The notes beneath the pieces are model-generated. The model did no database searches, was not told where the DNA came from, and saw only the letters and a list, made by a program, of their open reading frames with translations. From NCBI GenBank assembly GCA_013306675.1, contig JABLUY010000126.1:1-64000 (forward strand): DNA of 64,000 bases. Reading direction: 5' to 3'. The stretch comes from Thraustochytrium sp. TN22 (taxonomy: Eukaryota > Sar > Bigyra > Thraustochytrida > Thraustochytriidae). This document shows positions 17,840 to 62,743 of this stretch, in pieces (within the stretch, counting starts at the first letter, position 1; each line of letters opens with the position of its first letter). Position numbers and translations under genes: made by a program.

Positions 17840-17840
<1 letters not shown>

Positions 17841-17931
<91 letters not shown>
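17841..17931. repeat. TGCG tetranucleotide microsatellite, about 23 units
   Basis: An uninterrupted run of TGCG over 91 bases. Alternating purine/pyrimidine composition makes it a strong candidate for Z-DNA formation. It sits in the spacer between two convergent genes. Confidence 0.95.
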
Positions 17932-18073: not shown

Positions 18074-21000
18074 TCAGAGCTGCGTGTAGGTGTCGCGAAG
18101 GTCGGCGGATATTTCGCAGCTCGACAGATCGCGGCAGTCCTGGTTGCCCAAGCTCGTGTCTCGATCAAAGAGCTCGTGCACCACCTTGAAGAGAGGCACG
18201 CCGCCGCCGGCATCCACCGTGTAGTACCGCGAGTACGGCACAACACAGTGGTGGTCGCCCGGACCCACAAAGTGCAGCAGGTTCGACGGATTCCCCGCCT
18301 GGAGCGGGTCGTACATCTCGTTGAAGGCCGTGTTCCACATGCGCTTGTCCGCGGCCGTCGGCTCATAGTCGGTGCTGGTCTCGTTCTGCTGCAGGAGCAG
18401 AAAGTACACCTGGTTCCAGTCGTACGCCGCCGAGTACTGCGTAAAGTACACCGACGGGTAGCGCTGCGCGGCCCACCGGTACAACTCAGCCAGCGTCAGC
18501 ACAGAGAGATCCAACGGGTCGGTCGACGTGCCGTTCGGCACAATGTCCAGGTCCAGCGCCCCGCCGCCCACGACGTTCCACCTCGGGAAGGACTCGGCCA
18601 AGAAGGTATCCGTCACGACGCCGGCACCGGCGTCGCCCAGCTGCACGACACGCGTCGCGGCGCCCATCTCCTCGTACATCTTGGCGATACGCGGCGTGTG
18701 CCAGAAGCTGCCGTAGCTGCCGGCGGAGCACCCCGAGACCAGGACACGCTCAGGCGCCGGGATCTGGTCGCGGATGTAGTCCAGCACGTAGCCCGTGTTC
18801 ACGTTGCCCTTGTGCTGGATGGTGAGCCCGTCCGAGTACTGCACCACGCTGTCGCCGGCGTGCAGATCGGCCGTGCAGTAGGAGATGTAAATGTGCGTGG
18901 CGTCGCCGTACGGACCGTCTGGGTCGCCCAGGCCCGCCTTGACGTCAAGCCCCTTGGCGGCCCGGCGGAAGCCGGCGCGCGCGTCCTCCACGGTGTCCGT
19001 GAAGCTGCCGGCGGCAGCCTGGCACGTGTTGAGGCTCCAGCAGGCGCCGCCGCCCTCGAACTCGATGATCATGGGTGCGCCCTCAGCGCCCTTCTTGACG
19101 AAGAAGGCGTAGGGCGTGCCTCGCGCGCAGATGGACGCGTTGCCCGGGCGGAACTCGGTCCAGACGCCCTCCTCCAGGTCGGCAAAGTCCGGCATGTGGT
19201 ACGAGTCGTCTAGGCCGTCCGCGGCGTCCGCGTCGGCGTCCGCGGCAGCCTGCTCTGCGAGGCGCACCGAGTACATGCCGGCAAAGAGGCCGAGAAGGCC
19301 AAGGATGGCCACGCAGAAGACGACAGCGGCCCTGCGCACGCTCGTGCGCGAGCACTCGCGCGAGTCGCTGGCAAAGACCCCCCTGGACTCCTGGCGTTCT
19401 ACTCGGAGGCGATGCGGCAGGAGAAACATGCCCATGAGGCCCTCCGGCCCCCAGCGCGCCAGGAGGGTGGGCAACAAAAAGAAGCCCGTTAGATAGGCGA
19501 AGGCGAGCGTGATGCACATGATGAGCGCAAAGACCGAGAGGGGCACGAGCGTGGCGAGCATGAGAACGGCCGTGGCCGCCGTGGTGGACACGGCGCCGGC
19601 CGTGATCGAGGTGCCGAGTGTGCCGAGCGCGTGCTCGACTCGGTCAGCGCGGCGCTCAAGCCCTCGGTCGAAGAAAGCGTCGCAGTACGCCATGGCCATG
19701 TGCACGCTGTAGTCGACGGAGACACCAAAGGTGAGGCTGAGCCCCATCGACTCCAAAGTGCCGAGCGAGCGGCCCGACCAGGAGATGCAGGCGGCCACGA
19801 TAACAACGGACAGAGACACGTTGAGCGTGGCGATGACTGATACAATCCAGTTGTGGCACGCCAGCGCACAGACGATGAGCGAGGATACAAAGGACAAGCC
19901 GAGACTCTGAAAGACCATGTCCACGGACGCGGCCTGGGTGGCCATCGACACGAAGTAGTCATAGTCCGTGTAGTACGTGTCCGTGGACAGTGACTCGGGC
20001 TGCTCCTCGCGCACTTCCTTGAGGAGGCTGTCCCAGCCATCTGCCAGCGCAGTACGCTTGGTGTAGGAGTCCGCCTCGCCGAGCTCCGCCGCGAAGGACT
20101 GCACGGCAAAGCGCGCATGCAGGTTGCCGTTGGCGAGCCGCTCGAAGCCCACGCTCGTGTACATGTCGTAGCCGAACTCGGGCCGCCTGAGGAACTCAAC
20201 AAGCGCCTCCTCGAGCGTCTCCGCTGCGGCTCGCGCCGGGATCTGCACGTCGAGGCTGAGGACGCTGCCGCTCGCGTTGGACGAAACAATCTTGGGCATA
20301 GGAAAGGATTCCTGGCGCGCCAGGCGCCATTTGGCGAAGGCTACCATGAAGCACTTGGCGCGGTCTTCCTCATGTGCGAGGTCCGTCTGAAGGTACAGCT
20401 CGTCTTGGCGCTCCTCGAGCGCTGTCTCGCACACCTCGCGCAGGTAGGTCTGCGCGTCTTCGGCGGCGAGATCAAGGTTTTCGTCAAAGACGGGTGCGCC
20501 GAAGTCGTCGGCAACGGCCAGGCTCGTCCCGGCACGGTCAATGAAGGGCGACTTGATGCCCCAGACCACCTTGACTGAGGTGACGGTCTCCTCCGACTGC
20601 TTGAAGCCGTTTGCCTCACGGTTCGCCAAGTACAGCCCGTTCGGGTGGTCCTCCCTGTAGCCCGTGAGGCCCTCGGACGCCAGCTCCAAGGTGCTCAACT
20701 CCACCAGGGCCGCGATGAGCAGCGCCGCAACGACGAGGAGAACGCCTCTCTGGCCGCGGCGCTGCAGGATGAACCCCTGGGCCAGGTGCACGCGGCAGAA
20801 CCGCTCGAATCGAGTCGCGCGAGAGAGCAGCGTCGAGTCCGTGGCGTATGAGAAGTTGCCCGTTCCGGTGCTCCCGGACGAGTCCGTGCTCCCGGCGAGT
20901 GCAGGGTCAACGACCGCTCGGAGGCCCGCTCCTTTGTTCGCTGCGGAGTGCACCGACATCCTGGTCTCGACAGCCTGCGGGACGAGCGACAGCACCTTGC

Positions 21001-22549
21001 CGTCGGCGGCGCCCTCAAAGTCGTCAGGGTCCGGCAGCAGGTAGCGCTCGCGCAGGACGAGCGCCGCGAGGAACATGGTACAGGCCAGGGAGACGTTGGC
21101 CACGAGCAAGAGCACAGTCCAGACACCAAAGTACTGGAAGCCGGGCATGGGTGAGAGGCCGAGCGCGCCGAAGGCCAGCACCGTGGTCGTAGTCGTGGCG
21201 CAGATGGTATTGGCGCTGCGCGAGAACGCCCAGCCCAGCCGCTTCTCCAGCGTCCAGCCAGGGCCCACCAGCATGCTGCGCGATTGGCGCATCGCGTCCA
21301 CGAGGATGAAGAGGTCGTCTGTCGCAATGCCCAGCAACAGAAAGATGGACACGACGGAGAGGCCGTTGAAGAGCTCAATCCCGAAGATGATTCGGTAGAA
21401 GACGAAGCAGATCGGGAAGGCGAGCATGATCTGCAGGAAGCCGGCGATGCCCAAGAAGATCGAGCCCATGTGCCAACAGAGTCCGACCAGCATGATGCCA
21501 GCGGAGATGCAGGCGCAAAGTGCATCTTCCAGGAGGGTCTCGATGCCCTCGCGCGTAAAGATGCCGCGCTGGAAATGGACGACCACCATTTGAGACGGAT
21601 CATCCTGGTACCGCTGTCGCGCGGCCCCGAGAATGTCAACAAAGGACGCCTCAGTGCCGGAGGACGATCCATCTGCCGCCCCGTCGCGGTCCCAGAGCCA
21701 CTCTGTGAGCTCTGCGAGCTGCTCATCGATGCGGTCGTCCGCGTTTAGATAGCCTGCCCGCGGGAAGCCGAAGCGAATGCGACTCTGCGTGATGGGGCAC
21801 TCCATGCTCACCTCCGGGTCAAAGTCCTTGCAAAAGTGCAAGAGAGAGTCGTCCTTGTCAGCCTCGCGGTCTTCCCACATGCGAAGGACGGCGGCGTCTA
21901 CCTCGGCTTGTGTTGTCGCGTTGCGCAGGTACCGGACGGGGCTCAGCACGGCGGCGCACGCATTGCTGTCGACGTCGACGAGGCAGTTGTCCTCGTAGCC
22001 TGAGACGCGCACGAGGCTGTCCTCCAGCTCGGCCATGCGGGCGATATTGTCCACGGTGAAGACGTTGCCCTGCAGCTTGCTGTCGCCGTTTCCGTTGCCG
22101 GCCGCCATGTACATGATGGTAAGCGGGTAGACGTCTTCGGACTGCTCAGTCTCGCGCACGTTGTTGGTTTCGCCGCTCTCCGGCCGAAGTACGAAGAGGG
22201 CTTTGTACCAGGCGTCCGCTTGGCGTGCGACATCATGGTGGCGCAGCCGCAAGCCGCCGAGCGGATCGTCAATGGTGATGAGGGTAGCGCTCATGCCTGC
22301 GGCCACCACTGCCAGCACGAAGGCGCTCAACAGCATCATGAATGGGTAGGAGACCGCAAAGCCCACGATCAGCGGTACGTTGCGCACGGGGATATCGTAC
22401 TCGGTGGCATCGCCGACGCTGCTGCTTTCGGGTGATCCTGTTGAGCCAGCTGACTCAGTCGAGACAGAGCCATTTACAGACTCGTGCTGGGGTTCATGGC
22501 GTCGGTCCTCCTTGCTCACCACCTCGACCACCACCTCGCCGGAGCTCAT
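18074..22549 (-). CDS. Dispatched/Patched-like RND transporter fused to a pectinacetylesterase/Notum-type hydrolase, copy 1
   Basis: A 1,491-residue fusion. Residues 1-1065 form a two-repeat RND/sterol-sensing-domain protein: a first membrane segment near 60-85, a large loop, then a membrane bundle with GIATDDLFILVDAM (about 407-420), a second loop, and a second bundle with GVSVDYSVHMAMAYC (about 942-956). The paired GxxxDD and GxxxDY motifs in the fourth and tenth helices are the proton-relay type of Dispatched/RND proteins. An extra hydrophobic helix (about 1070-1090, after RRAAVV) leads to a complete pectinacetylesterase domain (about 1118-1491): EFEGGGACWSLNTC, the nucleophile elbow GCSAGSYGSFW (Ser about 1275) and GPGDHHCVVPY as the His region. 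Dispatched-like proteins export lipidated or sterol-linked cargo; this esterase family includes plant pectin deacetylases and the Wnt deacylase Notum. The substrate is unknown. ATG 22549. Confidence 0.85.
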   Translation of the reverse strand: MSSGEVVVEVVSKEDRRHEPQHESVNGSVSTESAGSTGSPESSSVGDATEYDIPVRNVPLIVGFAVSYPFMMLLSAFVLAVVAAGMSATLITIDDPLGGLRLRHHDVARQADAWYKALFVLRPESGETNNVRETEQSEDVYPLTIMYMAAGNGNGDSKLQGNVFTVDNIARMAELEDSLVRVSGYEDNCLVDVDSNACAAVLSPVRYLRNATTQAEVDAAVLRMWEDREADKDDSLLHFCKDFDPEVSMECPITQSRIRFGFPRAGYLNADDRIDEQLAELTEWLWDRDGAADGSSSGTEASFVDILGAARQRYQDDPSQMVVVHFQRGIFTREGIETLLEDALCACISAGIMLVGLCWHMGSIFLGIAGFLQIMLAFPICFVFYRIIFGIELFNGLSVVSIFLLLGIATDDLFILVDAMRQSRSMLVGPGWTLEKRLGWAFSRSANTICATTTTTVLAFGALGLSPMPGFQYFGVWTVLLLVANVSLACTMFLAALVLRERYLLPDPDDFEGAADGKVLSLVPQAVETRMSVHSAANKGAGLRAVVDPALAGSTDSSGSTGTGNFSYATDSTLLSRATRFERFCRVHLAQGFILQRRGQRGVLLVVAALLIAALVELSTLELASEGLTGYREDHPNGLYLANREANGFKQSEETVTSVKVVWGIKSPFIDRAGTSLAVADDFGAPVFDENLDLAAEDAQTYLREVCETALEERQDELYLQTDLAHEEDRAKCFMVAFAKWRLARQESFPMPKIVSSNASGSVLSLDVQIPARAAAETLEEALVEFLRRPEFGYDMYTSVGFERLANGNLHARFAVQSFAAELGEADSYTKRTALADGWDSLLKEVREEQPESLSTDTYYTDYDYFVSMATQAASVDMVFQSLGLSFVSSLIVCALACHNWIVSVIATLNVSLSVVIVAACISWSGRSLGTLESMGLSLTFGVSVDYSVHMAMAYCDAFFDRGLERRADRVEHALGTLGTSITAGAVSTTAATAVLMLATLVPLSVFALIMCITLAFAYLTGFFLLPTLLARWGPEGLMGMFLLPHRLRVERQESRGVFASDSRECSRTSVRRAAVVFCVAILGLLGLFAGMYSVRLAEQAAADADADAADGLDDSYHMPDFADLEEGVWTEFRPGNASICARGTPYAFFVKKGAEGAPMIIEFEGGGACWSLNTCQAAAGSFTDTVEDARAGFRRAAKGLDVKAGLGDPDGPYGDATHIYISYCTADLHAGDSVVQYSDGLTIQHKGNVNTGYVLDYIRDQIPAPERVLVSGCSAGSYGSFWHTPRIAKMYEEMGAATRVVQLGDAGAGVVTDTFLAESFPRWNVVGGGALDLDIVPNGTSTDPLDLSVLTLAELYRWAAQRYPSVYFTQYSAAYDWNQVYFLLLQQNETSTDYEPTAADKRMWNTAFNEMYDPLQAGNPSNLLHFVGPGDHHCVVPYSRYYTVDAGGGVPLFKVVHELFDRDTSLGNQDCRDLSSCEISADLRDTYTQL

Positions 22550-25325: not shown

Positions 25326-28300
25326 TCAAAGCTGTGCATAGGTGTCGCGTAGGTCAGCAGAGAGCTCGCAGCTCGACAGATTGCGGCAGTCCTGGTTGCC
25401 CAAGCTCGTGTTCCGATCAAAGAGCTCGTGCACCACCTTGAAGAGAGGCACGCCGCCGCCGGCATCCACCGTGTAGTACCGCGAGTACGGCACAACACAG
25501 TGGTGGTCGCCCGGACCCACAAAGTGCAGCAGGTTCGACGGATTCCCCGCCTGGAGCGGGTCGTACATCTCGTTGAAGGCCGTGTTCCACATGCGCTTGT
25601 CCGCAGCTGTCGGCTCGTGGGCACTGCTCGTCTCGTCCTGTTGCAGAAGCATGAAATACACCTGGTTCCAGTCGTACGCCGCCGAGTACTGCGTAAAGTA
25701 CACCGACGGGTAGCGCTGCGCGGCCCACCGGTACAACTCAGCCAGCGTCAGCACAGAGAGATCCAACGGGTCGGTCGACGTGCCGTTCGGCACAATATCC
25801 AGGTCCAGCGCCCCGCCGCCCACGACGTTCCACCTCGGGAAGGACTCGGCCAAGAAGGTATCCGTCACGACGCCGGCACCGGCGTCGCCCAGCTGCACGA
25901 CACGCGTCGCGGCGCCCATCTCCTCGTACATCTTGGCGATACGCGGCGTGTGCCAGAAGCTGCCGTAGCTGCCGGCGGAGCACCCCGAGACCAGGACACG
26001 CTCAGGCGCCGGGATCTGGTCGCGGATGTAGTCCAGCACGTAGCCCGTGTTCACGTTGCCCTTGTGCTGGATGGTGAGCCCGTCCGAGTACTGCACCACG
26101 CTGTCGCCGGCGTGCAGATCGGCCGTGCAGTAGGAGATGTAAATGTGCGTGGCGTCGCCGTACGGACCGTCTGGGTCGCCCAGGCCCGCCTTGACGTCGA
26201 GCCCCTTGACGGCCCGGCGGAATCCGGCGCGCGCATTCTCCACGGTGTCCGTGAAGCTGCCGGCGGCAGCCTGGCACGTGTTGAGGCTCCAGCAGGCGCC
26301 GCCGCCCTCGAACTCGATGATCATGGGTGCGCCCTCAGCGCCCTTCTTGACGAAGAAGGCGTAGGGCGTGCCTCGCGCGCAGATGGACGCGTTGCCCGGG
26401 CGGAACTCAGTCCAGACGCCCTCCTCCAGGTCGGCATAGTCCGGCATGTGGTACGAGTCGTCCAGGCCGTCGGCGGCGTCCGCGTCGGCGTCCGCGGCAG
26501 CCTGCTCTGCGAGGCGCACCGAGTACATGCCGGCAAAGAGGCCGAGAAGGCCAAGGATGGCCACGCAGAAGACGACAGCGGCCCTGCGCACGCTCGTGCG
26601 CGAGCACTCGCGAGTTCCGCTGGCCAGGACCACCTTGGAGCCCTGGCGAGCATCCTCGAGCTCGAGGTGACGCGGCAGAAAAAACATGCCCGTGAGGTCC
26701 TCCGGCCCGCAGAGCGCCAGGAGGGTGGGCAGCAGAAGGAAGCCCGTCAGGAAAGCGAGCGTGAGCGTTACGGAGAGGATGAGCCCGAGCTTGTAAAGGG
26801 GCACGAGCGTGGTGAAGAGTAGCGCAGCCGTCGCGCCGATGGTGGACACGGCGCCGGCCATGATGGAGGTGCCGAGCGTGCCGAGAGCATGCTCAACGCG
26901 GTCAGCGCGTCCCAGAAGCGCTCGGTCGAAGAATGCATCGCAGTACGCCATGGCCATGTGCACGCTGTAGTCGATGGACACGCCAAAGCTCAGGCAGAGC
27001 CCCAAGGACTCGATCGTTCCAAGGTCCAGCCCGTTCCAGGAGATGCAGGCGGCCACGACCATCACGGTCATCGTAACATTGAGGGAGGCGATGACGGAAA
27101 CGATCCAGTTGCGGCACACCAGCGCACAAATGATGAGCGAAGCAGCCAGCGACTGGCCGATGCTCCAAAACATGTTGCTGACGAAGTAGCCCTGCGACAC
27201 TTGCCACACAAAGTAGTCGTAGTCGGTGTAGTAGACATGGTCCGAGAGTGACTCCGGCTGTTCATCGTGAACCTCCTCAAGGAAGCTGTCCCAGGCGTCG
27301 GCCAGCGCGCTACGCTTCGTGTAGGAGTCCTGCTCGCCGAGCTCTGCAGCGAACTCCTGCACGGCGAAGCGCACACGCATATTGCCATTCTCAAGCCGCT
27401 CGAAGCCGACATCCGCGTACAGATCGTAGCCGAATTCGGGCCGCCGTAAGAACTCCAGGAGCGCCTCCTCGAGCGTGTCCGCGGCGGCGCGGGCCGGGAT
27501 CTGCACATCAAGGCTGAGCACGCCGCCGCTCGCGTTCTCATGCACGACCTTGGGCACTGGAAAAGCCTCGTTTCGAGCGAGGCGCCACTTGGCGAAGGCC
27601 AACATGAAGCACTTGGCGCGGTCCTCATCCTTGGTGAGGTCCGTCTGCAGGTGCAGCTCCGAGACTCGATTCTCAAGGACGTCCTCGCACATCTCGCGCA
27701 TGTAGAGTTGCGAGTCCTCCGTCGCGAGGTCAAAATCCGCGTCAAAGATGGGCGTGCCGTACTCGTAGAGGTCGGCAACGTTGGTGCCCGTGCGGTCAAT
27801 AAAGCCGGGTTCCAGACCCCAAACCATCTTGACCGTCGCCACGGCATCCTCCGACACCTTGAAGCCGTTTGCCTCACGGTTCGAAAGAAAGAGCCCGTAC
27901 GGGTGGTCTCCCGCGAAGCCTACCATCGACTTCGACGCAATGTGCAGGCTGGGCAGTTGAGCGCAGGCCGCAACAAAGAGCGTTGCGAAGCTCAACAGCA
28001 CAATCTTCTGCCCGGTCCGATTCAGGATCAGACCTTGCGCCAGATGTACGCGGCAGAAGAATTCAAATCCCGAGGCGCGCGAGAGAAGTTCCGCGTCGGT
28101 CGCCAGCGAGACCCTGCTGTGCGGCGCCACTTTGCTACAGCCCATCTTCCGGAAGCCCTCTTCTTCGTCCTGAGGGCCAGCCTCCTCGTCCTGGGCAACG
28201 TCCTTGGCAACATCCTTGGCAGCGTCCTTGGCCTCGCCAGCGTCCTGCGGCTCCGGCGCCGGCGCCGTCACGAAGTAGCGCTCGTGGATCACGAGCGCGG

Positions 28301-29766
28301 CGAGAAAGATAGTACAGACCAGAGCAACGTTCGCAACCAGCAGCAGCACGGTCCAGATGCCAAAATAGCGCAAGGCCGGGACCGGCGAGGTGATTAGGGC
28401 GCCGAAGGCCAGCACCGTGGTGGCCGTCGTTGCCAAGATCGTGTTTGCACTGCGCGAGAAGGCCCACCCCAGCCGCTTCTCGAGTGTCCAGCCGGGCCCA
28501 ACCAGCATACTGCGCGACTGGCGCATCGCGTCCACAAGGATGAAGAGGTCGTCCGTCGCGATGCCCAGCAGCAGGTAGACGGAGCTCACGGAGAGACCAT
28601 TGAAGAGCTGCAAGTTGAAAATCACGCGATATGTCGCGAAGCAGACCGGGAAGGCAAACAAGATCTGCACGAGACCCACGACGCCCAGAAAGATGGAACC
28701 CATGTGCCAGCACTGGACCACCAGTACGATAACAATGGATACGCCCACGAACCGCGCGTCACTCAGCAACGTCTGTACGGTCTCGCGCCCAAGGATGCCA
28801 CTCTGGTAAAACGTGATCACCGTTTCGGAGGGGTCGTCCTGGTACCGCTGGCGCGCGGCCGCGAGAATGTCCATGAAGGACGCCTTGGAGCCAGCGGATG
28901 ATGAGCCGTCCGCCTCGCCGTCGCGGTCCCACAGCCACTCCGTCAGGTCGTCGAACTGCTCCTCGGTGCGATCCTCCGTGTTCAGGTAGCCAGGCCGCGG
29001 GAAGCCGAAGCGAATGCGAGTCTGCGTGATGGGGCACTCTAGGCTCACTTCCGGGTCAAAGTCCTTGCAAAAGTGCAGCAGTGTGTCATCCTTGTCCACT
29101 TCGCGGTCCTCCCACATGCGGAGCACGGCAGCGTCCACCTCGTCTTGCGTTGTCGCGTTCCGCAGGTACCGGACCGGACTTAGCACAGCTGCACACGCGT
29201 TGCTGTCAACGTCGATCAAACAATTGTCCTCGTAGCCTTGAACGCTCACCAGGGCGTCCTCCAGCTCGGCCATTCGTGCGATGTTTTCCACAGTGAAGAC
29301 GTTGCCGGTGGGCGTGTCACCGTCGCCGTTGCCGGGCGCCATGTACATGATCGTAAGTGGAAATAGGCCTTCCGACCCCTCGGTCTCGCGCACGTTGTTG
29401 GTTTCGCCGCTCTCCGGCCGCAGCACGAAGAGGGCCTCGTACCACGCGTCCGCTTGGCGTGCGACGTTATCATCACGCAGCCGCAGACCACCGAGTGGGT
29501 CATCCATCCCCACAAAGGGTACACTCAGCACGGCGACGACCACAGCCAGCACCAAGGCGCTCGTCAGCATTAGGAACGGGTATGCGACAGCAAGGCCTAC
29601 GATGATGGAGACGTCGCGCTTTGGTTCATCTTGATTGCGCTGCGAGGCGGCGGACGCCTCGAACGACAGCGAAAACTTTGGAAAGTACGAACTAGGCCAG
29701 GACGCACCTGACGCTTTGGGTTCTGCACAGCGCTTCTCCTCCGCCTTGACCTTTACACCGATGCCG

Positions 29767-29808
<42 letters not shown>

Positions 29809-29879
29809 AGCTCGACATCCTCAAGCCCAGTCTCTTGAGGACGTGCGTCTTGCTGGTGCTCCGTGCCAGACGTCAGCAT
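25326..29879 (-). CDS. Dispatched/Patched-like RND transporter fused to a pectinacetylesterase/Notum-type hydrolase, copy 2
   Basis: A 1,517-residue paralogue of the gene at 18074-22549, same strand and same architecture. The N-terminus differs: it carries a pure poly-Gln run (residues about 25-38). The RND part keeps GIATDDLFILVDAM and GVSIDYSVHMAMAYC. A linker near 560-580 repeats Asp/Ala/Lys units (KDVAKDVAQDEEAG) not present in copy 1. The thirteenth hydrophobic helix and the whole hydrolase domain (about 1146-1517, nucleophile in GCSAGSYG at about 1300) are nearly identical to copy 1, while the transporter halves differ at a substantial fraction of positions. This step in similarity points to gene conversion or a partial recent duplication. 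Both copies keep intact catalytic motifs and frames, so both are probably functional. Confidence 0.85.
29768..29807 (-). repeat. CAG run encoding poly-Gln in RND-esterase copy 2
   Basis: An uninterrupted GCT/CTG run on the given strand is read as CAG in the gene and encodes about 14 Gln. The run is absent from copy 1. Confidence 0.9.
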
Positions 29880-38511: not shown

Positions 38512-41500
38512 TCAGTCGGCCAGGGCGACGGTGTCCAGCACAAACGGGAAGCGCAAGAGGTCGTGGCGCTCGTGCGAGACAGACTTGGCGCGGCGGTAGC
38601 GCTCGCCGAGCAGAAAGGACGAGTTGGTCATCCACTGACGGCACTGCACGAGCTGCTGGCGGCGCTTGGACACGGCGCTGCGCGACGGTGCAAAGGCGCG
38701 GTCGTAGCGGTCCGAGGCGAGATATGCTTTGAGCGCCTGCGCCATGCGGTCCGCGAGCGGACGGTGCAAGTGGAGCACCGAGGTGGTCTCGGCTGGATCC
38801 CGGACCAAGTCGTACATCTCGAGCGCGTCGAGCCCCTGTGGGACGAGCTGGCGCGGGTCGCGCGGCTCGAGCAGCAGCTTGAAGGCGCCCGCGCGCACCG
38901 CAAAGCGCGGGCTGTGGGCGCGGCAGTCCGCGCCATTCGCCCAGCCGCGGAACTCGAAGAGCAACGTGCGGTCGGCCGTCGCGGCGAAGAGGTCCTCCCC
39001 ATCCCAGGCGGCGCGCGTGGCGGCGCGAACTGGGACGCGCGCGAGGCGCGCCAGCGTCGGGAAGAGGTCCGCAGTCGTGGCGGGCTGCGACCAGAGTGAG
39101 AACGCTGGCATGCCGCCGCCGCGTAGAACGAGCGGCACGCGCAGACCGCCCTCGTAGAGCGAGCGCTTGCCGCCCCGAAAGGGCCCTGCAGAGCCCTGGC
39201 TCGCAAAGTACATGCCCTGGTTCTCCGGCCCGTTGTCCGAGAGGTAGACCACCAGCACCTGGTCGCGCCAGCCGCGGTCGTCGATCCACGCCAGCAGGCG
39301 GCCCACCTGCGCGTCGTGGTCGCGTACGAGCGCGCGGTAGATTTGCAGTGGCACGTGCGGGTCGGCGGCCGGGTTTGGGAAGCCGCCGCGGCCCGCAGCC
39401 GCGGCCGCAGCGCCGGGTCGGCCAGGGAACGGCAGGTCGGCCAGCCCGTAGCCGAGGTGGGCGGCCTGGCCGCGGCCCGGCGCCAGGTTGAGCGGTGCGT
39501 GCGCGTTTTGGAACCAGACATTGACCAAGAACCGCTTCTGGTCGCGCGCGCGGTCGCCCAGGAAGCGGATCGTGCGGTCGACAATGTCCTTTTGCACGTG
39601 TGACGCGAAAAAGAGGTCGTCGTGGTCGTACCTTTCCTCGGCCGACAGCGTCGACTCGGTGGCCGCATACACCTTGACCTCGTCGATGGCGTAGCTGGCG
39701 TGGCGCGGCGAGCGGTGCGCCGCCGGTGGTTCTAGGTTGCCCAGGTGCCACTTACCAAAGTGGCCCGTCACGAAGCCGGCTGCCCGGAACGCGGACGTCA
39801 TGTAGTCGAGCGGTGTCGAGGACACGTTCCGGCTCCTCAGGCTGGCTTCGCCCAAATAGGCCGCAGTGCCAAAGTACGTGCTCTGGCCGGCCGAGGTGGG
39901 CATTTGCCAGTGGATGGCCACCTCGCGTTGGAACGGGTAGCGCCCCGTGAGCAGCGCGGCGCGCGTTGGCGAGCACACCGTGGAGCTCGCGTAAAAGTCG
40001 GAGAGTGCGAGGCCCTCCTGCATGAGGCGGTCTAGCGCTGGCGTCTTGGGCGCAAGCTTGTCGGTATCAGTCTCCAGCCAGTGCGCCGCGTCCGGGTCCA
40101 CAGGGCTCGCACGCAGCGCCGCCACGTCGCCAAAGCCGAGGTCGTCGGCCAGCATGATGACCACGCCGCGCAGGTTGGCGGCTGCCTGGGGCGCCTCCTT
40201 CAGCTCTGTGCGGCCCTGGAAGGTGCGCTGCAGCGCCTCGGCGCACCCGGGGTGCGGCGCGGCGCGCGGCGAGTGGTCAGCGTACGCGTCCGCGTGCCAG
40301 GTGACCAGGTCCTGGCGCAGGGCGTGCTGCGTCGCGACAAGGTCAGGGTGGTCCGCGAGGTTGGCCTGCTCGTAGTGGCCGGTGGTCGTGGAGCGGTCGT
40401 GCACGCGGAAGAGCTCCACGCGCGTCGGTGCGTCCAGAGCGCCCTCAACGCCGGGCTCGAGCAGCAGCTTGAAGCGGTGGTCGCGCATGATGGCGAGGCG
40501 CGGCGCCGACGCGAGGCAGTGGCCAGGCACGGGAAACCGCCACTCCCAGACGAGCGGGTGCGTGCGGGGCCTCGGTTCGTCGGCCTCCACGTGCGTGGAC
40601 GCGAGTAGATAGTCACTCTGGTCCTCGCCGGAGCCGCGGGCGGCGACTTCGTCGGCGGCGCGGCTACCCACAAGCAGAGCGACCGCGGTTGGCGCCCAGT
40701 CCACAGCACCGACCAGGCCGTGCTTGAGCTTGAGCTTGAGCTGAAGCTCGAGCTCGAGCTCGACCTTGAGCTCGGGCTTGAGCGGGAGCGAGACCGAGAG
40801 CGCGGGGCCGGCCCGGTCCAGCGAGCCAAGCGCTGTAGCTCTCGTGTCATTGGCCCACGCATTGCCTTGCGACGACCGCGACGACCGGACAGAACGCCAG
40901 TAGACAAAAGGGACGCGGATGCCACCGTCGTAGAGTGAGCGTTTCTGGCCGCGAAAGTAAGTGGTGCCGGCTGCGTGCGCGTACACCTCGGGAAGCTCCG
41001 GGCCATTGGTGCTGGAGACGGCGGCCAGGACCCGATGCTGGTGGCTCGCGCTCACGGTCAGTCCCAGGACTTCGCGCACGAGTTGCGCGACGAGTTGACG
41101 TTCGCGACGTTTGCTGGCGCGGTGCAGCATGCGCGGGCATGACGCGTAGCGGTGTGGGTGCGTCTTGCGGCGGCGGATGTCCGGACAGGTGGGGGAAGCG
41201 TCGCCCATGCCGGGCACATCGCGCAGCAGCGCGTGTGCCCATGGCGCGGTCTCGAAGGCCACGTCCACCTGCGGCAGCCAGACCTGGACGTAGAAGCGCT
41301 GGCCAGCGGCTACGCAGCGCGCCGCAAAGCTCTTGGCTGCGTGCACGGCCGCCTCTGGGTTTTGCGTGATGAGGTGCTCGTCCGCCACGGCCTCAATGGC
41401 GAGTGGGACGTCCCAGGTGCCGAAGTGGCCCACCCTGACGCCCTCTTCGCGCAGCGCTGCGAGCAGGGTGTCTGTGGGCCTGAGCGGCGGCAGACCGGCA

Positions 41501-41937
41501 GCACCTCGCTCGCGCGCTGGCGACTGCAGCACGCCCAGTTCCATGGGAAAGCGGCCAGTGAGCCAGCCGACCTTGGAGGGGACGTGGTCCGGGCTGCTTG
41601 TCCGGAAGCTACTGAGCGCGGCGCCGCCCGCGGCGCCCACCAAGGTCTGCATCTCACCAAGGTCCAGGTCTCCCGCTCCGGCGTCTTCGAGCAGGACCAG
41701 CACGACGCCATCCAGCGTCGCCGGCTTGGCCTCTGCCCGTGGTGGTGCCGCGGCGGGCTCAGGCTGGCCCAGCACCTTGAGCACGATCACAGGCACGGCA
41801 ACTGCGTCCTGCTCCGGCTTCCAGCCGCGTGTGTGCCACGCCCATGCAGTCGCTGCGCAGAACCCGAGCGCGAGCGCCATCCCCCTGGCCGCGCCTCGCG
41901 GCTTCATCTTTGATTGTGACAGTTTGCTCTTCTTCAT
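38512..41937 (-). CDS. Tandem-domain sulfatase: degenerate first domain, intact arylsulfatase-type second domain
   Basis: 1,141 residues. The N-terminus is a signal-anchor (MALALGFCAATAWAW near 20-34). The second domain (about 585-1141) is a standard formylglycine sulfatase: metal residues in VVIMLADDLGFGD, the modification site VCSPTRAALLTGRYP (Cys 655, C-x-P-x-R), HFGKWHLG, and LSDNGPENQG with FRGGKRSLYEGGLRVPLVL. The first domain (about 55-560) has the same order of elements but key residues are replaced: LVLLEDAGAGDLD for the metal site, DHVPSKVGWLTGRFP with His for Cys and Lys for Arg, HFGTWDVP for HFGKWHLG, and SSTNGPE for SDNGPE. It is therefore predicted to be a pseudo-sulfatase. Secreted or Golgi/lysosomal location is likely; the substrate is unknown. 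ATG 41937. Confidence 0.88.
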   Translation of the reverse strand: MKKSKLSQSKMKPRGAARGMALALGFCAATAWAWHTRGWKPEQDAVAVPVIVLKVLGQPEPAAAPPRAEAKPATLDGVVLVLLEDAGAGDLDLGEMQTLVGAAGGAALSSFRTSSPDHVPSKVGWLTGRFPMELGVLQSPARERGAAGLPPLRPTDTLLAALREEGVRVGHFGTWDVPLAIEAVADEHLITQNPEAAVHAAKSFAARCVAAGQRFYVQVWLPQVDVAFETAPWAHALLRDVPGMGDASPTCPDIRRRKTHPHRYASCPRMLHRASKRRERQLVAQLVREVLGLTVSASHQHRVLAAVSSTNGPELPEVYAHAAGTTYFRGQKRSLYDGGIRVPFVYWRSVRSSRSSQGNAWANDTRATALGSLDRAGPALSVSLPLKPELKVELELELQLKLKLKHGLVGAVDWAPTAVALLVGSRAADEVAARGSGEDQSDYLLASTHVEADEPRPRTHPLVWEWRFPVPGHCLASAPRLAIMRDHRFKLLLEPGVEGALDAPTRVELFRVHDRSTTTGHYEQANLADHPDLVATQHALRQDLVTWHADAYADHSPRAAPHPGCAEALQRTFQGRTELKEAPQAAANLRGVVIMLADDLGFGDVAALRASPVDPDAAHWLETDTDKLAPKTPALDRLMQEGLALSDFYASSTVCSPTRAALLTGRYPFQREVAIHWQMPTSAGQSTYFGTAAYLGEASLRSRNVSSTPLDYMTSAFRAAGFVTGHFGKWHLGNLEPPAAHRSPRHASYAIDEVKVYAATESTLSAEERYDHDDLFFASHVQKDIVDRTIRFLGDRARDQKRFLVNVWFQNAHAPLNLAPGRGQAAHLGYGLADLPFPGRPGAAAAAAGRGGFPNPAADPHVPLQIYRALVRDHDAQVGRLLAWIDDRGWRDQVLVVYLSDNGPENQGMYFASQGSAGPFRGGKRSLYEGGLRVPLVLRGGGMPAFSLWSQPATTADLFPTLARLARVPVRAATRAAWDGEDLFAATADRTLLFEFRGWANGADCRAHSPRFAVRAGAFKLLLEPRDPRQLVPQGLDALEMYDLVRDPAETTSVLHLHRPLADRMAQALKAYLASDRYDRAFAPSRSAVSKRRQQLVQCRQWMTNSSFLLGERYRRAKSVSHERHDLLRFPFVLDTVALAD

Positions 41938-56569: not shown

Positions 56570-59500
56570 TCAGGCCTTGTCGCCGGCCGCGTGAGTGGGC
56601 GACAGGGTCGTATCCGAAGGCTGCTGCAGTTCGCGAAGGATTTCCCTGCCCTCGCTAGAGGAGAGAAGAGCACGGAGAAAGGAACGAACGCGGCCGCTCG
56701 CTGAGCGAGCAACTGGAGGAGAAACCGACCCGTCATAGACAGGGTTGCTGGAGCTGATCTTGGAGGAGGAGGCCGGTCGACCGTCCACGAGCTCGGCAGT
56801 CGCGACCACTGCATCAGACCTACGCTGCCGGCGGCGGCGGAGAGCCAGGAGGACGGCGGCCGCGATGACGAAGAGGGCACCGAGGCTGCCACCGACCGCG
56901 GCTGCGACCGTGCTCTCGCCCGAATTGCCATCGTCGAGAACCGAGCCATCGTCGACGCCCGTCGCGAATTCGTAGGTCGCCGGGATGATCGTCGACGGAA
57001 GAAGCTCCTCGCGCGCGGCAGTGACCAGGGCCGCACGCGTCTGGCTATCCTGGAGGTAAGAGGTGTACGAGGGCGCCGAGGCGTACGAGGCGTAGTCCGG
57101 CAGTGTCAAGGTGTAGGCCGCGTTCGCACTGGCCAGGCGACGACTGCGACGGTCGCCGCCGTCGTCGCTGGTGACCACGATGGCCTCGGCCAAGTTGCCG
57201 TGCAGGTCGCGTACGCCGCTCAGCGTGATCTCTGCGGACGCGCCGCTCCAGAGCACGTCCACGTCGGCGAACACGGTGATGATATAGAGCCCGGGCGAGC
57301 AAGTGAGTGCGGTGGTGGCGATCTCGGAGGTGGTGCCGTTGTTGAGGGAGACGACGAGGTCTGCCTCTAGGTCGCTCCGGCTGCAGTCCACAGGTTCGCT
57401 GAAGCGAAAGTCCATGACGGGCAGCATCCCGGAGGCCTGGCGCACGGTGACGTAAGGCGTAACCGCAACGAGCTCGGGCCCGCTAGAGTCGCGCAGACCG
57501 AGGCGCAGGCCGGACTCCGTCATGCCTACGATGCGGCGAGTGTCGGCGTCCCGGCAGGTCACGTTGAACTTGAGGAGGTAGTGGCCGTACGAGGCCAGTG
57601 GCAGGTCGGAGCCAGCGAGCTGCATCGAGGTGGCGCCGTCCGGAAAGTCCGCCAGGCGCGCCCAGGCGCCGGCCTGCACGCCATCCGCGTAACGAGCGTA
57701 CCAGGCCACGACCTCCGACGTGTAGGCAGAGCTGTCGGCGCTCGTCCCGCGGGCATAGCTGAGGTCCAGGGACGGCCGCGAAGTCGAGACGGTCCAGGTG
57801 GAACCCTTGGCGATGAGGCCGCCGGACCAGTAGATGGGCGGGCACGAGGACGGCCAGTCGAGCCTGTACTCGAGAGTCTTGGCCGTGCCGCTGTCGCAGG
57901 CCGAGGCGACCGTGAAGACGACATCCTTGCCGCCAACCGTCTCAACGAGCCGCTCGAAGAAGACGGTGACGGTCAGTGGCGAGTTGACCGCGACGGTGAG
58001 CGCGACGGGCGAAATCAGGCTCTGCCCACCCACGCGGTAAACGATCTCGCTAGCGGCACTGGCGGAATCCACGGAGATGACCAAGTCGACTTCGTCCATG
58101 TCCACAGACTTGGCCGTGTTGATGAGGAAGGTCATGGATCCGGTATCGCCGTCGAGGACCAGATCCTGGTCGCCCAGCGGCGTCAGCTCGATGACCTCAC
58201 GCGCAGTGGTCCCCGGCACATGCGGGCAGCTCGTGGTGCCGCCGATGACGCGGTAAACGTGGGCGCCGCTGCGCGGGGACTTGTACATGGCGACGGAGAG
58301 CTGGTCTCCAGGGGAGTCCTCGTCAAAGTGCGTCGTGTACGAGATGGAGGTCGTGGTCAGATCGCTCGTGAAGTTCGTCTGCTGCGTGACGGAGGTAAAG
58401 GTGTCGATATCGGTGCGCACGACCTGAAAGTCGATTCTGGAAACAACCGCACTGTAAGTAACACCAACTCCGCCCCCCAATGACGATTCCATATAGAAAC
58501 CGGCGCCGTCGCCTACGTTGGCTATTCCCTTCTCGGTTGTGCTGGTCGAGTGGTAGTCAATGATCGCTGACGTGAAGTTGGTGTTGGACTCGGTAATGGT
58601 AACCTCGCTGCTGCCGAAGGTGAAGATGTTGGAACCGGAATCGGAGCTTGTGCCGGAGACGAAGCGCGTTAAGTCAAGTGGGTTGTTCAGGGCGTCGCGC
58701 TCGTCCTGGTCCCAGGCCTTCAGCAGGGTCTCCCAACTTGCGTGAGCGTTTGCGGCGTCATTGCAGAACTCGATCTTGGCGTCATCTTCCTCAGCAGTTT
58801 CGTCCATACCGAAGCACTCCCTGTCACTCCTGGCGGTGTTGATGTCGGCCATGCTGCGCCGCACGTCCCCGCGCGAGTAGAAGATGAAAGACTGACGTGG
58901 AGGGCTCCACACGGTCGAAGGGTCGCCCTCGATCATGCACTCCACCGAGTCGAACGTGATGAGCGTGGTCCGCGAAAAGTTACTGACTGAGCCCATGAGA
59001 AAGACCATGTTGCCATCGTCGCCGTAGAGACCCTTTGGCGTTTGCAGAGTGAGCTTAAGCTCTTCCGACGTGCTGGTCACAGTGTTGCCGTACGACTCGA
59101 CCTTGTAGTTCGCCGTGGTGTTCTCATTATTGACCTCGTGTACGACTCGAATGAGTGCTGACACGTCGGAGTAGTGCGACGTCGCATACCCCTCTACAGT
59201 ATCGGTAGATTTGGAATTGATCACGGTCGTTTCGGTTGTGAGCTTTCCGGTCCAGGACATCTCGCTGTACGAGCTCCGCACCTGGTCAACGGCAGTCACG
59301 GGCGGGGCGTAGAGGAATGCGATGGGGACTGTGTCGTTCTTGGTGTAGGCCACAGTCGAGGCTGCCTCGTTGACCATGAGTCCCAGCACGAGCATCTTGA
59401 GGTCCGCCGAGGCGGGCGCACCCTGGTCACTGGACCAGAAATTCTCGTTGTGGACGTCGGCGTCCAACTTGCGGACGAAGCGCACGGCAACGCCCTCATC

Positions 59501-62500
59501 GTCCAGTGGCTCGGGGACGGACGAGTTGAATAGCGCCCCGGCCTCGCCCACGTACGCCAGGCGCAGCGCAGCCGATCTGTTGACCCCGCCCTCCAAGACC
59601 GTCTCAAAGGGGATCCAGCAAGGGTTGTTGAGACCGCACTCCACGCTGTTGTCGAGCCCGGGCGCGAGGTTCCCGGAAAGCCGAGCCTGCGTGCCGGCAG
59701 GAAGAAGAAGACACGTCAGACCGTTGTAGATCGTCTCGGTCCTGACGCCGACAGGCGTCTGACGGTTGCCCACGACGACCACATCTGCGTCGACGCCCGA
59801 GCAGTTGTCCAACTCCAGGCTCGTTGCCTGAATCAGCACCTCCAGCTCCGGGATCGGGTGGTGCACGAACTCGACCAAGGTGTTATCCGCAGTGTCGAGG
59901 GTCAGATCCAGCGTCCGGCTCGCGGTGTCGGGGTAGAGATAGCTGTAGCTGTCGCCCACGGCCACGTTATCGGCCATCTGGAAAGTCAGGCCCCAGGTGA
60001 TCGCATTGGCCGGCACGTCCAGGGCGGTGTCCAGCTCCTCGTCCAGGGAGAAGGTTGCAGAGGCGCTGCAGCCTGCGACTCCGACGGTAAGCTCTCGAGG
60101 GCCGAGGGCGTAGCCGCACTCGGTTGCCGCCATGTAGAAGTCGAGTGCCCGCACAGTGGTGTCCACAAAAAAGGCGTTCACATCGGTCGTTGAGATTACC
60201 GCGATGCCTGCGCCGAGAAGGCTTGCGGCGTCCGTGTCACCCGCGAGTGCCGCGAAGGTGTGGTTGTTGTACGAGAACTGGAAGGTGTACGTCAAGCCTT
60301 TGACGACCGCGAACCTGAAGCTCCCGTCGGCTGCGGTCACCGTGCTAGCCATCGCCTCGCCTCCGGAGACCACAGTCACTGTAACGCCCTGAACGCCGCA
60401 GGCAGAGGCGTCGAAGCTGAGCAGGGCGCTGGACGGCATCATGACGTGGCCTTGGAGGGTTTTCGATTCGAGATCCATCAGGTAGAAGGGCTTCTCGAAG
60501 TTCAGGTGGGATATGTCGAGGGTCGACCCGAGCGCCTCGTAGGTGCCGCAAGGGTTACTGCTATCACTGCCAGTACAGACGACGAGGCCAGCATTCGTCG
60601 GCTCTGCGGAGCCAGGAAGGACACGCGTTGCGTCCACGACCATGAGCGAGGCGTCCCAGACGTCTCCGCTTCCGGGTTCGGGCTCCTCGACGACGACCGC
60701 TGCAACAGTCGCCTTGGAGCTGTCCGAGACCACCGTGCGCAGCGGGTCGGCGCTAGCGTCGTTGCTCATGCTAAAAGTGATGGTGATACCCTCGATCTTG
60801 GTCGTGCCGTCTGCACCGAGCACCGTCCAGGTCGTCGTTGCGTGCCACAAGGTCGTCCGCACCTCACAGCCCTCCCACGAGCCACGTGCGTCGCCATTGC
60901 CGGCTTCGCCCCAGGCCACAGGGCGGTCACTTTTCCCCGTGGCGTACACCGAGGTGAGACATGCCGTGTAGCTGATGCCAGGATCGCGCTTGTCGAATGC
61001 CAACCCCTGATTGAACCTGATCGTCTGACCACCGCCTAGCGAAGTGAAAGGCTCCGCATCCGAGCAGGACACCGTGTTGGCGAAGCTCGCCGCGTCAGTG
61101 CCCCCCGTCATGGCGAGGGTCCACGAAGCAACCGTCTCAGCTAGGATGGACGATTTGAAGGTTGCGGTTAGCACGAGCTCACCACTTGTGTCCATCTGCT
61201 GCTCGAAGCTCAGGTCGTCTGCGCGGTAGTATGTGGCAAAGTCGAAGTCGCCCGAGAGGACGTAGCCCAGGTCCCCCCCGGAGGTCTGGTCAAGCGTCGT
61301 AAGCTCGTTCGCGAGAGACGAGCCCCTGCAGATGTTGTGCTGGCAGATGCGCCCGCTATACTGCCGGTGGCTGCACGAGTCGCATAAGCCGTTGCCAAAG
61401 GTGTTGCCCTTGTAGCCGTAGCACACGCCCTGGGAGCAAGTGCCGGTCGACAGGCTCTGTCCCGACGCGCCGAGCTGGGTTCGCAGGCAGTGGACCGGCT
61501 GGCAACCGTCGTCGGAATTGGGAACTGGAAATTCGTACGCGGGGCAGTCGTGCTTCGGGCGTGTTGTGGAAAATTCGGGGCACAGGTCCTCGTTGTTGCA
61601 GTCATGCTTTTCCCAGTCTGCGGTGCACCACGACCCCTTCGGGCACTTCTCGCACGCGTCACTCGTGCTCGTGCTATCATGCTTCGTCCTGTCCATGTAG
61701 TAGCCGGCGCGACAGGTGGGGCAGTGCTTCGAGCCCGTGAGCACCCATTCTGTCGTGCTCTTGAATCCTTCCGTGGAGTCCCAGTCCCAGTCCCGATTTG
61801 GCATGAGCTGGCACGCCTTAGTGTTAGGATAAAAGTTGAACCACTCGCAACCTGCGTGGCTGATGCAAGCTCGACGGCAATCGTGAAGGTTGTCCTGGGT
61901 TTGTATTTGGAGCGGGGTGTCATCCTTGTAATAGTTCTCGTATACGCAGCCAGGCCGCTCTTGCGCTACCAGGCCAAAGGTGTAGATCTTGCTGCCGCAG
62001 TACAGGTTGCCGTGAAATTTACCCTGTGAACTCGTGTACGGTTGTCCACTGTTCGTCATTGCGCCCGAGTACAGCTTGCATTTGTTGGTGTCCGCTTCAT
62101 AGGCCCACGACAGGCACGGATGATGGTCTTCGCTTCGGGCCTTGTTCCCCATTTTCTGGCACATCTCGGAGCCGGAGTAATCGATCCACACCTCGACACT
62201 GCTCAGACAGTTATTGCACAGCCCGCCCTTCGCCCAATGATTTCTGTCTCTCCGGTCAATGGGGTTCACAACGCCCGCGTTGCCATTTCGGTTGTTGTTC
62301 CAGAAAGATGCTTGATAACACGGCGGAACGTAGTAGTACTTGGCGTTGTCGTTGTCGAATTTGCTCTTGATGCTGTCGACGCCGTTCCAGTCGTGCACGG
62401 CCACGAAGTTGTTGTAACCATCCTCGTTTGCGTCCCAGAGGTAATGCCAGCCTTGATTATCCTGGATGTTGACACTTCGCCTAATGCTCGCAACCCAGTG

Positions 62501-62743
62501 ATCCATGCATTTATCGCGGCAAACCTTGGCGTTGGCCACGTCCGAGATTGTCTTGAAGGGGTTCCCGTCTTCGTACCACGTGTGGGCATTGAAATCAGTC
62601 TGAATGTGACGCACATCACCATGCAGAACGCACCCGGGCTGCAAATGATAGGGCATGGTGTTAGGCGTAGCCGCCATCGCCATCGCCATCGCCAGCGCGA
62701 GCACCGTAAGCGCCAGCAGTGCGCTCATGGTCCCGGTGTGCAT
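56570..62743 (-). CDS. Giant type I membrane surface protein with Cys-rich PAN/Apple-like N-terminus
   Basis: 2,057 residues from ATG 62743. Signal peptide at about 6-25 (MSALLALTVLALAMAMAMAA). Residues about 30-340 hold two or three Cys-rich PAN/Apple-like units, the clearest being GCVYENYYKDDTPLQ with CRRACISHAGCEWFNFYP and ACQLMPN. A Cys-rich stretch follows (CPTCRAGYYMDRT, CEKCPKGSWC). About 500-1900 is a long Thr/Ser/Asp-rich beta-type ectodomain with many N-glycosylation sequons; a carboxypeptidase-regulatory-like unit is visible (VTVTVVSGGEAMASTVTAAD then GSFRFAVVKGLTYTFQFSY). One membrane helix (about 1944-1965, LGALFVIAAAVLLAL) is followed by Arg-rich residues and a Ser-rich tail of about 90 residues. 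I do not recognise the family. A cell-surface receptor, adhesin or wall-linked protein is plausible. GC content is clearly lower in the 5' third (about 61400-62740). Confidence 0.82.
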   Translation of the reverse strand: MHTGTMSALLALTVLALAMAMAMAATPNTMPYHLQPGCVLHGDVRHIQTDFNAHTWYEDGNPFKTISDVANAKVCRDKCMDHWVASIRRSVNIQDNQGWHYLWDANEDGYNNFVAVHDWNGVDSIKSKFDNDNAKYYYVPPCYQASFWNNNRNGNAGVVNPIDRRDRNHWAKGGLCNNCLSSVEVWIDYSGSEMCQKMGNKARSEDHHPCLSWAYEADTNKCKLYSGAMTNSGQPYTSSQGKFHGNLYCGSKIYTFGLVAQERPGCVYENYYKDDTPLQIQTQDNLHDCRRACISHAGCEWFNFYPNTKACQLMPNRDWDWDSTEGFKSTTEWVLTGSKHCPTCRAGYYMDRTKHDSTSTSDACEKCPKGSWCTADWEKHDCNNEDLCPEFSTTRPKHDCPAYEFPVPNSDDGCQPVHCLRTQLGASGQSLSTGTCSQGVCYGYKGNTFGNGLCDSCSHRQYSGRICQHNICRGSSLANELTTLDQTSGGDLGYVLSGDFDFATYYRADDLSFEQQMDTSGELVLTATFKSSILAETVASWTLAMTGGTDAASFANTVSCSDAEPFTSLGGGQTIRFNQGLAFDKRDPGISYTACLTSVYATGKSDRPVAWGEAGNGDARGSWEGCEVRTTLWHATTTWTVLGADGTTKIEGITITFSMSNDASADPLRTVVSDSSKATVAAVVVEEPEPGSGDVWDASLMVVDATRVLPGSAEPTNAGLVVCTGSDSSNPCGTYEALGSTLDISHLNFEKPFYLMDLESKTLQGHVMMPSSALLSFDASACGVQGVTVTVVSGGEAMASTVTAADGSFRFAVVKGLTYTFQFSYNNHTFAALAGDTDAASLLGAGIAVISTTDVNAFFVDTTVRALDFYMAATECGYALGPRELTVGVAGCSASATFSLDEELDTALDVPANAITWGLTFQMADNVAVGDSYSYLYPDTASRTLDLTLDTADNTLVEFVHHPIPELEVLIQATSLELDNCSGVDADVVVVGNRQTPVGVRTETIYNGLTCLLLPAGTQARLSGNLAPGLDNSVECGLNNPCWIPFETVLEGGVNRSAALRLAYVGEAGALFNSSVPEPLDDEGVAVRFVRKLDADVHNENFWSSDQGAPASADLKMLVLGLMVNEAASTVAYTKNDTVPIAFLYAPPVTAVDQVRSSYSEMSWTGKLTTETTVINSKSTDTVEGYATSHYSDVSALIRVVHEVNNENTTANYKVESYGNTVTSTSEELKLTLQTPKGLYGDDGNMVFLMGSVSNFSRTTLITFDSVECMIEGDPSTVWSPPRQSFIFYSRGDVRRSMADINTARSDRECFGMDETAEEDDAKIEFCNDAANAHASWETLLKAWDQDERDALNNPLDLTRFVSGTSSDSGSNIFTFGSSEVTITESNTNFTSAIIDYHSTSTTEKGIANVGDGAGFYMESSLGGGVGVTYSAVVSRIDFQVVRTDIDTFTSVTQQTNFTSDLTTTSISYTTHFDEDSPGDQLSVAMYKSPRSGAHVYRVIGGTTSCPHVPGTTAREVIELTPLGDQDLVLDGDTGSMTFLINTAKSVDMDEVDLVISVDSASAASEIVYRVGGQSLISPVALTVAVNSPLTVTVFFERLVETVGGKDVVFTVASACDSGTAKTLEYRLDWPSSCPPIYWSGGLIAKGSTWTVSTSRPSLDLSYARGTSADSSAYTSEVVAWYARYADGVQAGAWARLADFPDGATSMQLAGSDLPLASYGHYLLKFNVTCRDADTRRIVGMTESGLRLGLRDSSGPELVAVTPYVTVRQASGMLPVMDFRFSEPVDCSRSDLEADLVVSLNNGTTSEIATTALTCSPGLYIITVFADVDVLWSGASAEITLSGVRDLHGNLAEAIVVTSDDGGDRRSRRLASANAAYTLTLPDYASYASAPSYTSYLQDSQTRAALVTAAREELLPSTIIPATYEFATGVDDGSVLDDGNSGESTVAAAVGGSLGALFVIAAAVLLALRRRRQRRSDAVVATAELVDGRPASSSKISSSNPVYDGSVSPPVARSASGRVRSFLRALLSSSEGREILRELQQPSDTTLSPTHAAGDKA

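Follow-up and report, generated by a model that had tools for sequence, protein, structure and literature searches.

A Dispatched-family transporter and a pectinacetylesterase-family hydrolase joined in one reading frame of Thraustochytrium sp. TN22

We analyzed a window of 64,000 nucleotides from the thraustochytrid Thraustochytrium sp. TN22 (assembly GCA_013306675.1, contig JABLUY010000126.1, positions 1 to 64,000 of the forward strand) and found in it a one-gene fusion of a Dispatched-family RND transporter with a hydrolase of the pectinacetylesterase (PAE) family and predicted Notum fold, an unusual domain pair. The gene, copy A, is a single open frame on the reverse strand (18074-22549, 1491 aa) with no interruption, confirming an earlier note, made from the sequence alone, in which one unbroken frame was said to join the two. 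Pfam detected both families within its 1491 codons, the first half matching Sterol-sensing (1.1e-12) and Patched (4e-11) and a region near the end matching pectinacetylesterase PF03283 (1.2e-16), each above its curated cut-off. The two-part layout described in that note is accurate as far as both parts share the frame, but it passed over an extra hydrophobic helix, here called TM13, that separates the hydrolase from the RND core. On balance we favor, with slightly better than even confidence, reading the gene as an ion-driven lipid transporter of the Dispatched family extended by this helix and a PAE (CE13) esterase that would act on cargo at the outer face of the membrane. The parts of copy A are as follows.

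19361..22549, reverse strand: residues 1-1063, Dispatched-family RND transporter with sterol-sensing domain (Pfam Sterol-sensing and Patched; Dispatched at the top of a PDB profile search)
21314..21331, reverse strand: GIATDD motif of TM4, residues 407-412 (motif)
19700..19726, reverse strand: GVSVDYSVH motif of the expected TM10, residues 942-950 (motif)
18077..19360, reverse strand: C-terminal module of TM13 and PAE hydrolase, residues 1064-1491 (near-identity to a second copy, B; divergence shifts abruptly at the module start)
19274..19330, reverse strand: extra hydrophobic helix TM13, residues 1074-1092 (hydropathy 2.54, charge balance, helix in the predicted model)
18074..19177, reverse strand: PAE/CE13 hydrolase domain from about residue 1125, stop included
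18725..18727, reverse strand: presumed catalytic Ser1275 in GCSAG, 1273-1277 (at least 90% conserved in 45 sequences; motif assignment, here and in the next two rows, from PMC5465549)
18419..18421, reverse strand: presumed catalytic Asp1377 in AAYDWNQ, a DxxQ motif (invariant in 45 sequences)
18248..18250, reverse strand: presumed catalytic His1434 in GPGDHHC, 1429-1435, with His1433 as the alternative (motif only)

The assignment of the transporter was supported by comparison with known structures. A PDB search with a profile built from the transporter parts of A and B plus two unfused paralogues of this genome returned Dispatched in the top 8 of 34 rows (188-265 bits), followed by Patched-1 (62.6 bits) and NPC1 (60.8 bits), in agreement with the Dispatched type proposed earlier. 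When copy A was used alone, the first seven rows were again Dispatched (53.6-112.5 bits), followed by NPC1 (40 bits) and Patched (38 bits), with fly Dispatched lower than both at 32.8 bits. The GxxxDD and GxxxDY motifs that had been reported as intact are indeed present, as GIATDD and GVSVDYSVH. Because of the PDB ranking and both acidic motifs, we call the transporter Dispatched-like, beyond plain RND. About 11 of the 12 RND-core helices were seen at a hydropathy threshold of 1.1, the helix carrying GVSVDYSVH falling below it. Animal Dispatched activity has been linked to membrane cholesterol and Hedgehog shedding (PMC8403983); a genome search for HH_signal gave no match, but its positive controls were equally silent, making the result uninformative.

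The PAE match scored 61.2 bits against a curated cut-off of 26.6, and the CE13 motifs GCSxG, DxxQ and HC are all present, with Ser1275 and Asp1377 aligned across the 45 sequences and His1434 placed by its motif. The earlier description of a complete hydrolase holds for GCSAG, GPGDHH and the triad residues, whereas the Pfam match in copy A spans only profile positions 22-187 of 355. In the predicted model, the PAE part adopts an alpha/beta-hydrolase fold of the Notum type. The triad residues point to esterase activity and, as part of the same joint explanation, we lean toward a serine esterase of the PAE (CE13) family with close bacterial relatives: one bacterial PAE-family protein matched the hydrolase of A with 159 bits and 40% identity, compared to 32.5 bits over a partial domain for Notum, the latter scored with a different program.

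Both the N- and the C-terminus of RND proteins are cytosolic, so one extra helix would carry the PAE domain across the membrane. The 15 residues ahead of TM13 carry a net charge of +2 and those behind it −2, and the PAE part contains sequons and cysteines, which are compatible with an outer location without proving it; the esterase apparently lies on the extracellular or lumenal side. In the mechanism we favor, the C-terminus of a Dispatched-family transporter was lengthened by one membrane helix and a PAE esterase, and TM13 would flip the side of the C-terminus to place the esterase next to the transporter's own ectodomains. There it could cut an acyl or acetyl ester on a lipid, glycolipid or lipid-anchored cargo handled by the transporter, altering the cargo while it leaves the membrane or before it enters; situated beside the pump on the outer face, the esterase could release arriving cargo or trim it. 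The arrangement suggests lipid movement and ester cleavage by one machine. Topology, enzyme activity and ion coupling are inferred from sequence features, while the identity of the cargo, the direction of transport and the coupling of the two activities are our guess.

A gene of equal layout, copy B, occupies a frame at 25326-29879 on the reverse strand (1517 aa), with Pfam matches to PAE, Sterol-sensing, Patched and MMPL.

26613..29879, reverse strand: copy B residues 1-1089, transporter part (67% protein identity to A)
25326..26612, reverse strand: copy B residues 1090-1517, TM13 and PAE module, stop included (97% identity to A)

Up to codon 1063, A and B differ at 594 of the 1041 codons aligned and at 115 of 246 fourfold sites; from codon 1064 on, 32 of 428 codons differ in total. 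Within the module, nine of 318 codons (three of 133 fourfold sites) differ over codons 1064-1381 and 0 of 63 over 1400-1462, but 12 of 18 differ in a patch at 1382-1399 (nucleotide identity 0.741 vs 0.719 in codons 1-1063), as do, at the C-terminal end (1463-1491), 11 of 29. The likeness of the DNA stops at the stop codon. The simplest account is that the gene was duplicated in tandem once the fusion had formed, and that gene conversion over the TM13-PAE module followed. As the copies are homogenized over the hydrolase end, copy B is no independent repeat of the fusion, and the argument that the pair occurs twice and is therefore no accident does not hold: the copies are tandem paralogues carrying one fusion. 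Two independent fusions in the window are ruled out on the same grounds, and a late PAE insertion copied into one paralogue is disfavored by the diverged patch and end, though the patch, where seven of the 12 changed codons are silent, could alternatively be read as hypervariable. GC content at third codon positions (GC3), computed in 100-codon blocks with the last part-block of each copy excluded, ranged from 0.75 to 0.93 in A and from 0.68 to 0.91 in B, with no break at the junction of either, in a window with a GC content of 0.60-0.77 (2 kb steps). No strong 5' splice-like motif was found in codons 1021-1130 of A or the equivalent stretch of B. An ACGC-unit simple repeat lies directly downstream of copy A, at about 17840-17930 of the window.

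To place the fusion among its relatives, the 37.9 Mb assembly (453 contigs) was searched for the PAE family exon by exon, with the best candidates scored, so that more PAE genes are possible. Four places were found, all above the cut-off, two being A and B. The other two, G000:C47 (L005) and G000:C199 (L006), belong to frames 1671 and 1679 codons long, in which Pfam detected PAE, an ABC ATPase and an ABC2 membrane part; by eye, both show a signal-like start, an ectodomain and one helix, the start codon of C47 being uncertain. All four PAE domains found in the genome are thus attached to transporters, of two unrelated classes, and the ABCG pair strengthens the case for the fusion. Both ABCG forms keep the Asp and His motifs, but GTRG replaces the GCSA of A and the Ser nucleophile is therefore lost. 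Searches with one of the two ABCG ectodomains and with a bacterial PAE gave no further PAE place, one place at 16.5 bits (E 0.04) being left uncounted. In a tree of 71 rows (midpoint root; 15 of 80 bacterial frames, those above 450 aa, omitted; eukaryotic PAE from this genome only), the RND and ABCG forms group together with weak support (73/89), and the branch to the ABCG pair measures 3.59 changes per column, which leaves room for either one or two origins of the PAE-transporter fusions. Besides A and B, the genome holds 18 sterol-sensing places; some are fragments of a single gene, and none of their frames exceeds 1613 codons. The genome-wide PAE search found no PAE in six translated unfused RND frames (five among the sterol-sensing places), nor did Pfam in four of the six.

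Clusters of transporter frames occur elsewhere in the genome. Sterol-sensing-domain frames form a dense tandem array at G000:C17:14291-55046, with 12 places in 41 kb, and two adjoining Dispatched-like frames (L021 and L022; G000:C111, 84-98 kb) have their transporter halves separated by long stretches rich in Pro and Thr, with a weak EGF-like match there. Tandem arrays of ABC2 transporters, mostly with two ABC2 matches per frame (PDR-like), were found at G000:C54:21110-54441 and G000:C122:137979-184385.

Several observations weigh against an esterase that works on the cargo of its own transporter, beginning with the bacterial relatives of the hydrolase. A scan with a single protein detected no bacterial relative, and an alignment was needed to obtain 257 loci with one, of which 80 were examined. 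In all 80, the PAE frame has at most two hydrophobic segments and hence no fused multi-helix transporter. An RND profile (alignment A5) matched none of 4286 open reading frames of these loci at E 0.01, though some loci end at contig ends and a very distant RND could escape the profile; four other RNDs of the Thraustochytrium genome, included as controls, were all matched. A greedy scan for the longest frames found, at five of the 80 loci, a neighbor that reached 650 aa or more and had seven or more hydrophobic segments. By Pfam, four of these are SecD, acyltransferase/PMT, AI-2E and MFS, the SecD also scoring above the cut-off for MMPL (27.6 bits), and the fifth had no match at 1e-5. The bacterial gene neighborhoods do not support a coupling of export and cleavage. 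Superposition of the hydrolase on Notum by Foldseek is loose (top row TM 0.50, rmsd 7.5), and a model of the transporter reached a pLDDT of 32.5, too low to show how transporter and esterase are arranged. The loss of Ser in both ABCG-fused domains means that no such catalysis occurs in that layout, the sole literature passage found on stramenopile PAE/NOTUM genes (in PMC8163842) labels them digestive, and the fusion is known here from genomic DNA of one assembly alone. From the earlier interpretation we retain a Dispatched-type RND with a Notum/PAE-fold hydrolase on the predicted outer side, but the coupling, with no RND neighbor found at the 80 bacterial loci, is something we infer. A single-chain device in which the pump extracts an ester-bearing lipid or lipid-anchored cargo and its own esterase cuts it in the same step, with a parallel ABCG branch using a dead PAE copy as a cargo-binding ectodomain, is conceivable, though less likely than not.

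The transporter half might instead serve only to place the esterase at a food vacuole, the plasma membrane or the ectoplasmic net, where it would digest external acetylated glycans or lipid esters with no coupling, a tentative account that we rate below an esterase acting on transported cargo. It would agree with the table of phagotrophy markers from 30 stramenopile genomes in PMC8163842, which lists a PAE/NOTUM ortholog group as a 'digestive enzyme', with the bacterial relatives, which are unfused, have a hydrophobic segment in 57 of 80 frames, often near the start, and no detected RND neighbor, and with the occurrence of PAE domains on transporters of two unrelated classes, which selection for membrane delivery would lead one to expect. 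However, a plain anchor would suffice for tethering, and the finding that all four PAE domains sit on transporter classes able to carry lipids and none of the four on a plain single-helix anchor speaks against it. Rather unlikely is a gene with two products, in which cleavage after TM13 or a second promoter would yield TM13-PAE alone as a type II membrane protein. TM13 is preceded by basic residues and resembles a signal-anchor, Met codons lie upstream of it in A (1039 and 1041), one of them also in B, and the TM13-PAE module approximates the homogenized unit; but as no stop codon lies between transporter and PAE, translation of the long mRNA always runs on into PAE. An assembly or annotation artefact, which near-identical stretches about 7 kb apart in a 453-contig assembly might suggest, is highly improbable given the divergence of the copies before residue 1064, the end of their likeness at the stop codon and the unbroken GC3.

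Domains in one chain often share a substrate, and the fusion therefore gives a hint as to what kind of cargo is handled by Dispatched proteins outside animals. Since transporters of two unrelated classes carry PAE within a single genome, a connection of this hydrolase family with membrane lipid transport can be put to the test in protists of a group that can be cultured. Among the matches listed from the open-licence literature, no title or abstract start describing such a fusion was found, and the word pectin is absent from the main text, as far as available, of two papers on Phytophthora sterol-sensing-domain proteins.

Other features of the sequences were recorded. A 1141-codon frame at 38512-41937 on the reverse strand of the window encodes a sulfatase (PF00884, E 3e-43), and sulfated polysaccharide has been described in thraustochytrid walls (PMC11642839); a PAN domain lies in a 2057-codon frame at 56570-62743, also on the reverse strand. 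Elsewhere, the genome contains a PfaA-type polyunsaturated fatty acid (PUFA) synthase (2539.7 bits summed, 3044-codon frame) and, at G000:C410:25857-39995, a 5691-codon frame with repeated PUFA-synthase model matches, which is therefore probably a large polyketide synthase. The PfaA-type synthase, the GC content and the long frames free of introns are in keeping with a thraustochytrid source. Viral contigs yielded pattern-scan candidates (29 and 72 stretches) but no confirmed PAE or transporter relative, although distant relatives can escape; phage records gave no PAE match, while six plasmid records matched PAE at E 0.01.

Compared to known systems, the transporter shares with Dispatched (DISP1, Drosophila Disp) the RND architecture, the sterol-sensing domain, the GxxxDD and GxxxD(Y/F)xxH motifs and the best profile match across both halves, and differs in the helix and PAE domain appended to the RND core. 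Notum, a palmitoleoyl-protein carboxylesterase, acts on Wnt with no transporter attached, whereas the hydrolase here is part of a transporter chain; the analogy drawn earlier keeps the shared fold but is otherwise weak, as identity is only 16%, bacterial PAE is closer, and Gly stands at the aligned place of the Notum Trp taken as Trp128 (numbering from the literature). The bacterial CE13/PF03283 hydrolases share the Ser and Asp motifs, a YCT(G/A)DxHxGD stretch and up to 37-41% identity, but are unfused, with a median frame of about 400 codons. The PAE-ABCG fusions of the same genome likewise attach PAE to a transporter, with the domain probably facing outward, but there it is N-terminal, the transporter is an ABCG half-transporter and the nucleophile Ser is gone.
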